Source: Proteus mirabilis ATCC 29906 (GTDB lineage Bacteria; Pseudomonadota; Gammaproteobacteria; Enterobacterales; Enterobacteriaceae). Taken from it: a stretch of DNA of 39,449 bases. Under the pieces are notes generated by a model, which saw only the letters and a list, made by a program, of their open reading frames with translations, was not told where the DNA came from and did not search any database. Where the stretch lies: contig NZ_GG668582.1 of NCBI RefSeq assembly GCF_000160755.1, positions 1-39,449 of the forward strand. Reading direction: 5' to 3'. The translations under genes were made by a program, and so were the position numbers. Shown in pieces: positions 15,815 to 37,302 of this stretch; the stretch's first letter is position 1; every line of letters begins with the position of its first letter.

Positions 15815-16369
15815 TTCCTTTTTATTTTAGTGGGTAATCTCTCTACATGCTGCCCCAGATATAACAACCGACTCTTTTACCACATCATATAGAGAATACC
15901 GTGTTATTAAATCAAATATTAAGAATAACATCTCTTGATTGATTGTCACGGTAGATAGGTCAATTAATAAAGGAAATTAACTATAAAAAATAATACTATT
16001 GATAAACGCACTTATCGCTTTTATGACTCATTTCGCATTAAATAAGAATCTATCTCATTTATATTGTATTAAAATCATCAAGTGCTAGACAAAATAAACT
16101 TATAGGATTATTTTAATAATTAAACTAATTTTTAATTGCTCTTTTTCTACTATCATTTTATTTAACAATATAGCTGACACATTTCAGCCTTACTCTCTGT
16201 CTTTCCTCAATAATTTCAGTTAACTCAAATTGTTAATAAATTTATTACTATTATTTTATTTCATGTCCCATGAAAAAGAGGTATGAAGTAAACATGACAT
16301 TGGTCACGCTACCTTTTGCTTTTTGTCCTCTAGAATAAAGCCTGTTTATTTTTCTACGGAGATTAACGG
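15815..16369. other. 555-bp AT-rich intergenic region with two divergent promoters
   Basis: No gene was found on either strand. It must hold the poxB promoter on the left and the promoter of the 16370 operon on the right, where a CRP-like site and a -10 box are visible (16288-16336). The middle is very AT-rich with many A/T runs, as often seen in DNA bound by H-NS, but no specific site can be named. Confidence 0.6.
16288..16336 (+). promoter_or_regulatory. Candidate class II CRP-dependent promoter
   Basis: CATGA-N6-TCACG with flanking A residues (about 16290-16311) resembles the CRP site TGTGA-N6-TCACA. A -10 box TAGAAT lies at 16331-16336 and no good -35 box is seen. With a start near 16343, the CRP-site centre falls at about -42, the class II activator position. 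The operon would then be active when preferred carbon sources are absent. Not tested. Confidence 0.5.
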
Positions 16370-17191
16370 ATGGACAAAAGTAGAAGTCCGATAAAGGTTT
16401 TCTTTATTAGTATTCTGGCAGTCCTTTTCTTAATTTTTATTTCACAATATGTGATTGGTAAAAAAGAAATTAAGATTGGTATTGCAGTCATTCCTATTCT
16501 ACCAATGTTATTTGCAGTTATTATTGGTATGTTTATGTCGGCTGGATTTACCCGCAAAAAAATTAAAGTTTGGGGTAAATTATTTACAGAAAAAGAAGAA
16601 GGCTTCTGCGGTAAAATGGTAGGTTTCAGCCTACTTATTTTAGGTACGCAATATGCTGGCATGATCGTCCCAAATATAAAAATGATTTTAAGTGTCGGTA
16701 TTCCTTTATTTGTTCAAGAGCTAGGAAACTTATTACCAGTATTAATTGCCGTACCATTAGCCATTAAATTTGGTTTTGGTCGCCGTGCAATTGGTGCATG
16801 TTCATCTATTAGTCGAGAACCTTCTATCGCCGTTATTCAAGGTAGATTTGGGACTGGCTCACAAGAATATATTGGTGTATTAGCTATTTACTTATGTGGT
16901 TCTGTTATCGGGACTTTATGGTTTAGCGTATTAGGTAGTCTTGCACCATTAACAGGCTTACACCCACTTGCTCTAGCAGCAGGCTCCGGCGTAGGTTCAG
17001 GTTCAATGTTAAGTGCTGCATCAGGGGCATTAATTAACGGTTTAGACGAAGCTTTAGCACAACAAGTATTAAGTGTTGCGGCTGCATCTAACTTATTATC
17101 TTCTGCACTTGGCGCACTCTCATTAACCTATTTAGGTTTACCTCTTTCAGAAAAAATTTATAAAGTTTTCACCAGAGGCAAAACTGCATGA
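16370..17191 (+). CDS. DUF3100-type multispanning membrane protein, putative transporter subunit
   Basis: A 273-aa hydrophobic protein with about seven membrane segments, at roughly residues 9-29, 35-58, 83-103, 105-135, 167-190, 195-215 and 229-255. I recognise it as like the DUF3100 proteins, whose substrate is unknown. Conserved-looking loops are GACSSISREPSIAVIQGRFGTGS (before segment 5, residues about 140-162 in part) and the Gly/Ser-rich AAGSGVGSGSMLSAASG (198-214). The latter resembles the broken-helix substrate sites of secondary transporters. ACGGAGAT precedes the ATG. The stop overlaps the next gene's start (ATGA), so the two membrane proteins are probably made together. The transport role is inference. 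Confidence 0.75.
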   Translation: MDKSRSPIKVFFISILAVLFLIFISQYVIGKKEIKIGIAVIPILPMLFAVIIGMFMSAGFTRKKIKVWGKLFTEKEEGFCGKMVGFSLLILGTQYAGMIVPNIKMILSVGIPLFVQELGNLLPVLIAVPLAIKFGFGRRAIGACSSISREPSIAVIQGRFGTGSQEYIGVLAIYLCGSVIGTLWFSVLGSLAPLTGLHPLALAAGSGVGSGSMLSAASGALINGLDEALAQQVLSVAAASNLLSSALGALSLTYLGLPLSEKIYKVFTRGKTA

Positions 17192-17637
17192 AAAATATAA
17201 TTATAGATATGAAATTAGTATTCGTTGCTATTTTACTGGCAATGTTTACTCAAACGTTAACATCAGGGATTGCTATTTATGCAATGTGGGATAGCTTTAT
17301 TGCTATGTCTGTAGTGGTTTTTATTTCACTCGTTGCTAAACAATATTTACCTTCATCTCTACCAACATTTGCTTATGCAACTATTATCGGGATACTTATT
17401 TGTTTACCTGAAACACCTGTAAGAGAGTTTTTTATTAGTTCTATTGGTAAAGTCTCTTTCTTATCTTGTTGTGTACCTTTATTAGCATTTGCTGGTTTAT
17501 CCGTTGGTGGCCAATTAGAAGAACTGAAGAAAATGTCATGGAAAGTGATCCTTATTTTCATGATTGTTTCTACCTGCTGTTTCTTCGGCGCATCAATCGT
17601 CGCACAAATTGGATTTACTATCCAGGGAGTTATCTAA
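17188..17637 (+). CDS. Small membrane protein, putative second transporter subunit
   Basis: A 149-aa protein with four or five hydrophobic segments, at about residues 8-28, 32-50, 60-78, 86-106 and 118-145. The stretch LLAFAGLSVGGQLEELKKMS looks like the short conserved segment before the last helices of several exporter and bile-acid-fold transporter families. It overlaps the preceding gene by 4 bp (ATGA) and the following one by 1 bp (TAATG). At about half the size of a transporter, it may form one transporter with the 273-aa protein (422 residues in all). No function is assigned. Confidence 0.7.
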   Translation: MKNIIIDMKLVFVAILLAMFTQTLTSGIAIYAMWDSFIAMSVVVFISLVAKQYLPSSLPTFAYATIIGILICLPETPVREFFISSIGKVSFLSCCVPLLAFAGLSVGGQLEELKKMSWKVILIFMIVSTCCFFGASIVAQIGFTIQGVI

Positions 17638-18818
17638 TGAATAATATTTATAATGTCAGCGAAAAACTCTTTCAATTAAATGACTTTAGTAAAAAAACAC
17701 GACAAGATCTGCACAAAATTCCTGAGTTATCAGGTGAAGAATATAAAACATCAAAGTATTGCCGTGAATTGATGGAAAGCTTTGGCTATCAAATTAAAAC
17801 CTTTGATGGCTATACTGGATTTACTGCCGATTTAATTGTTAATGCTGATTTTCCACTAATTGCCATCCGTGCAGATATGGATGGATTAGAAATGCCAGAC
17901 TTAACGAACAACGAACACAGCTCTATCCATCAAGGTTGTGCACATAATTGTGGTCACGATACTCATATGACCATTGCATTAACGGCCGCTAAATACCTTG
18001 CTGAAAACCAAGCAGAAATGAGCGCTAATGTGCGTTTTATTTTCCAAATGGCAGAAGAGGATATGCGTGTTCCTGGTGCTGACAAAATGGTTGAGTTAGG
18101 TTGCATGGAAGGCGTTGATGAAACTTACGCACTACATAATGATGCAGCTATCGAAACCGGTTGTGTACGTTTTAATGATGGTGTCATGTCATCTTACGGC
18201 TCAGCATGGACATTAGATGTTTATGGTGTTTCTGCGCACGGATCTACACCGCATAAAGGTTTAGATGCTATTCGTGAAGCAACTCGCTTAATTGATTATA
18301 TGGATTATGTGGTTGCCAAAAAAACTGATCCCTTTAGCCCTGCGGTATTTGGTTGCGGCATGATCAATGGCGGTACTATTCCTAATGCGTTAGCAGATCA
18401 CGTTCAAGCCCGTGGTACTATCCGCTCTATGGATGAAAATACCGACAAAGTATTAAAAGAAAGTTTTAATGAAATCGTAGCACGCAGTACAGCGGGTGGA
18501 TTTAAAACAACATTAACAGCGACAGGCTACCCTGCTGTTATTAACCATCCTACGGCTTATCAGCGTTTACTAGAAGCCACTCGCCAATTTTTACCAGAAG
18601 AGAATATCGAATCTAACGGTAAACCAATGACGGGTAGTGAAGACTTTAGCTATATGGTGAATGCCACTAAAGGTAAAGTTGGCGCAATGTTCTTTTTAGG
18701 CAGTGGTAATCAAGCTAAAGGTATCAATAACTACCTTCATGCTAATCCTTATTTTGTTGATGATGATTGCTTATTAGTGGGTGCACAGATTTTTGTTAAT
18801 CTGCTAACTCGCAAATAA
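17637..18818 (+). CDS. M20D family amidohydrolase (AbgB/hippurate hydrolase type)
   Basis: A 393-aa cytoplasmic metallohydrolase, expected to cleave an amide bond in an N-acyl amino acid or similar conjugate. Metal-site motifs are visible: RADMDGLEMPD (78-88), CAHNCGHDTHM (101-111, with C105, H107 and H110), AEED (139-142) and H167 in YALHND. The lid domain has GVSAHGSTPHKGLDAI, and the C-terminal metal histidine is likely in NYLHANPYF. Translation starts at the ATG that overlaps the previous stop codon, with AGGGAG 8 nt upstream; the open frame extends further upstream but without such a site. The substrate is unknown. Relatives act on aminobenzoyl-glutamate, hippurate, indole-acetyl amino acids and N-acetyl-cysteine derivatives. 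Confidence 0.85.
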   Translation: MNNIYNVSEKLFQLNDFSKKTRQDLHKIPELSGEEYKTSKYCRELMESFGYQIKTFDGYTGFTADLIVNADFPLIAIRADMDGLEMPDLTNNEHSSIHQGCAHNCGHDTHMTIALTAAKYLAENQAEMSANVRFIFQMAEEDMRVPGADKMVELGCMEGVDETYALHNDAAIETGCVRFNDGVMSSYGSAWTLDVYGVSAHGSTPHKGLDAIREATRLIDYMDYVVAKKTDPFSPAVFGCGMINGGTIPNALADHVQARGTIRSMDENTDKVLKESFNEIVARSTAGGFKTTLTATGYPAVINHPTAYQRLLEATRQFLPEENIESNGKPMTGSEDFSYMVNATKGKVGAMFFLGSGNQAKGINNYLHANPYFVDDDCLLVGAQIFVNLLTRK

Positions 18819-18835: not shown

Positions 18836-18870
18836 AGCCCGTTTTTTGCCCCCGCAAAAACGGGCTTTTT
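18836..18870. terminator. Terminator between the hydrolase and the CysB-like regulator
   Basis: GCCCGTTTTTTGC pairs with GCAAAAACGGGC around a CCC(C) loop, followed by TTTTT. It lies between two convergent genes and can end the three-gene operon on the plus strand. Confidence 0.88.
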
Positions 18871-19907: not shown

Positions 19908-20676
19908 GAGGAGTACCTGGGTTAATTGGCACAAGCATGCCGTTAATTATTGATTTTATAAAAATAATTATTGTTAATATTTATACTACAATGTCATTAC
20001 TCAAATTATCTGCTCTTATGCCTAGTGGATATTATGACATCTCCTCTCTTTTTGCTCTCTTAATAAGAATAGTGATATCTACTTAATTATCCACTGACTT
20101 ACCTTATCTATTTGCTAGAATAGAAAAGTGACTGCACCAAATCTAGCAATGACTGTTTTTATTTCTGTGTTTTAGCACAACGAATAATAGATGATTTCAT
20201 CCACATTAAAGCAGATATTAACTATTTATTATGCATAATTTGACTATCAATATATTATTTCTAATCAAAAAATAAAAACCCAACATAACCCATTGTTATA
20301 TAATAATATTTACTATTAGCTTTTTATCGCCATCTTCATCTAACTTAATTCAAATTTACAACCATTAACATCATGGATTTTACACAAAAGCCATATTCAG
20401 CTATGATATAGGTCACATTTTTTACTTAGAGGCTTCGTTTTGTTATATCAAAACAACGACAAAAAATCCCTAATCTTTCATTTAACCTCATCTATACTTA
20501 ATAAGTGTTCCATAAGCTATTAGTTCACCCTCACTATTTAACTATGTAGAAGTAAACTGTTTTTTAGTGAATTATTACCACTCTCTTTTCTCGCTATAAA
20601 ATAGTCACTTCATTTCGTTTAATTATTAATTGAATAACAACAATTTACTAATACCTTAATTGAAAGGTCACTTAAT
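19908..20676. other. 770-bp AT-rich intergenic region, divergent regulator and proP promoters
   Basis: No gene is visible on either strand. The left part must hold the promoter of the CysB-like gene. The right part holds the proP control region with a CRP-like site and a sigma-S-like -10 (20402-20501). The CGTTTTG/CAAAACAACG inverted repeat around 20435-20457 could be an operator. The rest is AT-rich and shows nothing I can name. Confidence 0.6.
20402..20501 (+). promoter_or_regulatory. proP control region: CRP-like site and sigma-S-type -10
   Basis: TATGA-N6-TCACA (20402-20417) is a good CRP-site match. TCTATACTTAA (20491-20501) matches the sigma-S extended -10 consensus KCTAYACTTAA. In E. 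coli proP has P1 (osmotic, CRP-repressed) and P2 (sigma-S, Fis and CRP activated). The two elements here fit that two-promoter plan. The leader would be about 170-220 nt. Confidence 0.6.

Positions 20677-35063: not shown

Positions 35064-37302
<2,239 letters not shown>

Follow-up and report, generated by a model that had tools for sequence, protein, structure and literature searches.

The window (i.e., the whole stretch of 39,449 nucleotides that was analysed) carries three tightly coupled genes on the forward strand at 16370–18818, together with a convergent LysR gene and two candidate sites upstream. The features are as follows:

16256..16291, + strand: candidate operator, dyad TTCATG-N3-CATGAA (16260–16274) within TTATTTCAT-N18-ATGAAGTAA; single exact genome copy of the dyad and conserved block
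16293..16308, + strand: possible CRP-like site, tentative, with a TGA-N6-TCA core; judged by its mismatch count to TGTGA-N6-TCACA
16370..17191, + strand: DUF3100 membrane protein, probably the larger part of a carrier, 273 aa; PF11299, 244.6 bits
17188..17637, + strand: 149-aa membrane protein, probably the smaller part of the carrier; adjoins or is fused to DUF3100 elsewhere
17637..18818, + strand: M20D amidohydrolase, likely an N-acyl-amino-acid hydrolase, 393 aa from the ATG at 17637; TIGR01891, 272.5 bits
18894..19907, − strand: CysB-like LysR regulator, convergent, 337 aa from its ATG; NF009326, 392.8 bits

Both gene overlaps were read directly from the sequence (ATGA at 17188–17191 between the DUF3100 and 149-aa genes, TAATG at 17635–17639 between the 149-aa and M20D genes), in agreement with the coupling described in the initial annotation. 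For the LysR gene, the ORF tool placed the start at a TTG at 19934, adding nine residues, and the ATG start was used instead. The flanking ORFs were poxB-like, LysR, and ProP, and no acetyltransferase gene was seen in the operon or the surrounding ORFs. The stretch separating M20D from the convergent LysR gene holds, by eye, a GC-rich hairpin (18837–18868) with runs of T on either strand; it was not listed by the terminator scan. No promoter is claimed, since the promoter scan gave no sigma-70 match at the place guessed by eye. Elsewhere on the forward strand (35100–37302), a gene judged priA-like by eye was split into two overlapping 372-aa frames (35100–36218 and 36184–37302), probably through a frameshift or an error in sequencing.

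In a Pfam search, the larger membrane protein scored above the DUF3100 cut-off of 27 bits, as expected from its initial assignment, and reached the cut-off of no other Pfam family, AbgT included. To our knowledge, DUF3100 is a family of unknown function, and no mention of it was found in the literature searched. The 149-aa protein reached no Pfam or NCBIfam cut-off (best E-values 0.16 and 0.47). Its association with DUF3100 was followed in a named-genome sample, i.e., the best 80 of at least 230 confirmed DUF3100 relatives and hence biased towards the query, where the small protein accompanied DUF3100 in all 80 loci (68 adjoining, 12 in the same ORF). With a profile built without fused sequences, it was also detected in 44 of 45 whole-genome loci, 14 of them fused, the single miss being L199; L165 and L169 in this set are the same loci as the named L082 and L106, which brings the count without repeats to 42 of 43. 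Fused forms occurred in Halomonas and relatives, Kushneria, Corynebacterium, and Arthrobacter. Because both parts are fused in other bacteria, the DUF3100 and 149-aa proteins probably constitute a single carrier split into two polypeptides. The two membrane proteins of the proposed "transporter pair" are therefore retained, but probably not as separate transporters.

For structural comparison, a fused Halomonas-type homologue (L071) stood in for the membrane pair of the window and gave a confident model from 48 rows (mean pLDDT 88.5, pTM 0.85). In this model, short helix pairs near residues 132–152 and 193–218 look like re-entrant hairpins. Foldseek returned no match at an E-value of 0.001 or below (best E-value 0.03); the best of the weak matches included SLC9C1, GltPh, ASBT, NhaP, and CitS (the latter at a probability of 0.75 and a TM-score of 0.30), amid carriers of other folds, and most of them were elevator-type carriers. 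Profile comparison of the membrane proteins with hhalign gave weak matches to 2HCT (E-value 0.0054) and LrgB (E-value 0.021), and no solved chain matched either membrane profile at E-values up to 1. The carrier is possibly of the elevator type, resembling CitS (2HCT), ASBT, Na/H exchangers, and GltPh in weak fold matches and re-entrant-looking helix pairs, albeit at the E-values given above. Two further relationships were considered but are not claimed. An internal repeat was suggested by an iterated-profile match of the small protein to DUF3100, but fused ORFs had probably contaminated that profile; the clean small-protein profile gave no significant match to DUF3100, and hhalign gave an E-value of just 0.0048. 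An LrgAB-like pair was considered because of the small-plus-large layout, but the profile match was weak.

DUF3100 was present in all 20 Proteus genomes searched (own genome included), and five named Proteus loci were 97–98% identical in it. A draw from the wider order showed it in 29 of 295 genomes, again counting the own one, and in 7 of 100 genera. Of the 80 named loci (best 80 of at least 230), 76 had an M20 gene no more than 3 kb from DUF3100, the exceptions being L086, L106, L088, and L100, of which the last two lie near contig ends. Across whole-phylum draws, the M20 partner was found in 31 of 44 loci (Pseudomonadota 13/19, Bacillota 17/22, Actinomycetota 1/3). For this set, we excluded the own locus, the two centre loci that the named sample already covers, and two Actinomycetota matches that scored under the Pfam cut-off; the repeats L165 and L169 are counted again in it. 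Four of the six plasmid regions opened also had an M20 gene (those without were from Klebsiella, L131, and Variovorax, L135). Gene-neighbourhood data thus extend the linkage of the three genes far beyond Proteus. Partner genes vary among lineages, and in several loci lacking M20, other hydrolase-like genes adjoined DUF3100 (by eye). Given the M20 neighbours and these other hydrolase-like genes, DUF3100 seems tied to the cleavage of C–N bonds, mostly via M20. As separate observations, distant DUF3100 genes stood beside deaminase-like genes of the amidohydrolase superfamily in L187, L189, L193, L198, and L199 (by eye), and a Moellerella genome carried a second, distant DUF3100 locus (L200) besides the window-type one.

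The amidohydrolase passed both TIGR01891 (cut-off 153.75 bits) and Peptidase_M20, so that its assignment to M20D holds. Its CGHD, AEE, LH, and C-terminal LH motifs were intact in alignments; we take these motifs to be the metal site with the M20D Cys. A permease, an M20 hydrolase, and a LysR regulator are also combined in abgABT-abgR of Escherichia coli, which serves the import and cleavage of aminobenzoyl-glutamate with two M20 subunits, AbgA and AbgB. The resemblance noted in the initial annotation stands as a functional likeness, whereas it does not extend to the parts: the window operon has DUF3100 plus a small subunit instead of AbgT, one M20D gene instead of AbgA and AbgB, and a CysB-like regulator.

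The convergent LysR protein scored below the cut-off of the CysB equivalog NF009326 (436 bits), and a separate CysB (580.9 bits, 44% identical to the LysR protein) is encoded elsewhere in the genome; for both reasons it is regarded as a paralogue of CysB, as first proposed. Nine residues lining the N-acetylserine pocket of CysB were taken from the accessible part of PMC11329422. By alignment to this list, the LysR protein keeps eight of the nine (Thr100, Thr102, Gln103, Thr149, Glu150, Trp166, Tyr197, and Phe199) and differs at Met246, which is Val, while outside these positions Ala227 is replaced by Thr and the Gly203-Arg204 switch pair is inverted. The same eight residues were found in Moellerella, Xenorhabdus, Providencia, and the aligned Aeromonas sequences, except for one Aeromonas locus (L040) with Gln103 changed to Met; Vibrio-group loci had a LysR with a different pocket. 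This paralogue, which differs from CysB in having its own candidate operator, is likely the operon's switch.

The exact dyad TTCATG-N3-CATGAA occurs once in the 4.03-Mb genome, against about 0.5 copies expected per genome as estimated from an assumed base composition; a single copy is unremarkable by itself, and it is the conserved position that counts. A block holding the dyad in exact or altered form precedes the operon in Proteus, Moellerella, Xenorhabdus, and Aeromonas; in Providencia, it precedes the M20D gene. Using a block pattern that was written after viewing the sequences, the scan recovered the block in the window and in all 15 loci with a 54–92% identical LysR (L030–L041, L045, L105, and L109), and in none of 12 Vibrio-group and related loci that have a window-type M20D with another or no adjoining LysR. 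At the level of sequence, the candidate operator block tracks the regulator. In the two Providencia loci, M20D and LysR are 81–82% and 69–70% identical to those of the window, and the window-type permease genes are absent (from the whole genome for L105, from the locus for L109); the one DUF3100 match in the L105 genome is distant. Both loci were also seen to have a distant DUF3100 pair and a 441-aa M20 gene just before the window-type M20D-LysR pair. The possible CRP-like site has three mismatches to the consensus in the window, two in Moellerella, and four in Xenorhabdus, with equal or better sites nearby.

Links to serine came from other lineages. A gene for L-serine ammonia-lyase lay near the module in three of the 80 named loci (best 80 of at least 230), from Marinomonas (L067), Psychromonas (L079), and Corynebacterium (L094), and on an Agrobacterium plasmid (L133). 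The 19 Pseudomonadota loci drawn included two more (L170 and L173, whose matches lie 16 and 8 bases away from those of M20), while 14 carried a HIBADH-family dehydrogenase and an aldehyde dehydrogenase (ALDH) instead and three carried neither. One L-serine ammonia-lyase neighbour was confirmed by TIGR00720 (685.9 bits). The M20 proteins of the L-serine ammonia-lyase loci belong to a different subgroup from the window's, and the window operon contains no serine enzyme. On the Agrobacterium plasmid, an annotated L-threonylcarbamoyladenylate synthase (L133, 3575–4549) was observed between the M20 and L-serine ammonia-lyase genes, all on one strand. Both the L-serine ammonia-lyase and the HIBADH plus ALDH genes could remove serine, the latter also other hydroxy acids.

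The HIBADH-type enzyme was considered as an L-serine dehydrogenase, with which the data are compatible; PA0743 belongs to the same family according to the accessible part of PMC3642240, phenylserine dehydrogenases were considered from what is available of PMC2963168, and a motif pair was found in 17 of 21 loci scanned. However, the best solved match was a tartronate semialdehyde reductase, and hence these genes do not decide the serine question. A background control for partner genes gave one HIBADH, no SDH, and no ALDH match and, at 127,700 bases, is too small to assess enrichment. Pantothenate degradation was considered for the HIBADH plus ALDH loci and dropped, as a literature search gave no support among the papers listed.

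In E. coli, DUF3100, the small protein, and M20 occurred together in 8 of 5,426 genomes, exclusively on plasmids, and the plasmid M20 shares 66% identity with M20D of the window. The regulator beside this version belongs to the TdcA family (441.9 versus 308 bits in the one record opened, L132), and the tdc genes degrade serine and threonine, as stated in the available text of the review PMC13168631. Taken together, the CysB-type pocket, the L-serine ammonia-lyase neighbours, and the TdcA regulator point, each of them indirectly, to an N-acyl-L-serine.

From gene linkage, fusion, family membership, and the conservation of pocket and operator, all of which were computed, we infer that the operon serves to import and cleave an N-acylated amino acid. 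The DUF3100 and 149-aa proteins would together make up a single secondary carrier, possibly elevator-type, for importing the compound; M20D would hydrolyse its amide bond in the cytoplasm to yield an amino acid and a carboxylate; and the CysB paralogue would sense the compound or its product in a pocket inherited from the N-acetylserine site of CysB and act at the dyad at 16260–16274. The likeliest substrate would be N-acetyl-L-serine or another N-acyl-L-serine. The class of system (uptake of an N-acyl amino acid and its intracellular cleavage) is well supported, and import with intracellular amide cleavage, as first suggested, remains the best reading; serine as the released amino acid is put forward as a hypothesis. 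For the reading as a whole, including N-acyl-L-serine as the likeliest substrate and the CysB paralogue as its sensor, our confidence slightly outweighs our doubt.

A sulfur-containing substrate, which the initial annotation had allowed for, is possible but not favoured, because the pocket is of the N-acetylserine type and L-serine ammonia-lyase is the partner in a few other lineages. Under such sulfur salvage, N-acetylcysteine or an N-acetyl-S-conjugate would be imported, M20D would free cysteine, and the CysB paralogue would report sulfur limitation. The membership of the regulator in the CysB family fits this, as does the hydrolase: its nearest solved relatives by sequence are ILL2, YxeP (second-best), 4ewt, and AgaA, and the accessible part of PMC12757645 describes ScmP (YxeP), YhaA, and YtnL of Bacillus subtilis as M20 deacetylases of N-acetylcysteine. 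According to the same text, the preferred substrate of ScmP is N-acetylcysteine, and its activity on N-acetylserine is 2.8%, which weighs against the serine reading; the Bacillus clusters carry an acetyltransferase gene beside the deacetylase. The window operon shares with the scmP, yhaA, and ytnL clusters an M20 amidohydrolase, here a likely one for N-acetyl amino acids, but lacks the acetyltransferase gene and has a DUF3100 carrier and a CysB-like regulator; moreover, partner enzymes and regulators elsewhere indicate serine over cysteine, and the possible weak CRP-like site would suit carbon use better. We consider sulfur salvage unlikely.

Little probability is likewise given to the alternative that the substrate is a different N-acyl amino acid or a small amide, for instance a hippurate-like compound, N-acyl-glutamine, or N-acyl-threonine, and that the serine links elsewhere reflect the differing substrates of related systems. 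This would agree with the breadth of the M20D family, whose solved members related to the window's enzyme include ILL2 (an IAA-amino acid hydrolase) and an N-alpha-acyl-glutamine aminoacylase, and with the differing DUF3100 partners among lineages, but less well with a regulator pocket so close to that of CysB or with the TdcA regulator beside the 66%-identical plasmid M20, although TdcA would also fit threonine. Export of a product by the membrane pair, or another role besides uptake, is very improbable, for while transport direction is unreadable from sequence and some of the weak fold matches are exchangers, the pair is frequently found with hydrolases in which no export signal is visible and, in other loci, with catabolic enzymes.

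Returning to uptake and cleavage of an N-acyl-L-serine, a bolder extension, which we regard as tentative and rather doubtful, would be that DUF3100 and its small partner constitute a new family of two-subunit N-acyl-amino-acid carriers and, at the same time, that in Proteus, Moellerella, Xenorhabdus, Aeromonas, and Providencia a duplicate of CysB, equipped with an operator of its own, has switched from gauging internal N-acetylserine to sensing N-acylserine that the cell scavenges. Literature searches covering few subscription journals showed, among the papers listed, no system by which bacteria take up N-acetylserine. In the available text of the review PMC13168631, serine breakdown is linked to the fitness of an enterobacterium in the inflamed gut. 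The reading proposed here offers a testable role for a widespread membrane family so far without one, adds an unannotated small subunit to the DUF3100 family, and points to a way in which a cysteine-synthesis regulator might be co-opted for scavenging nutrients.
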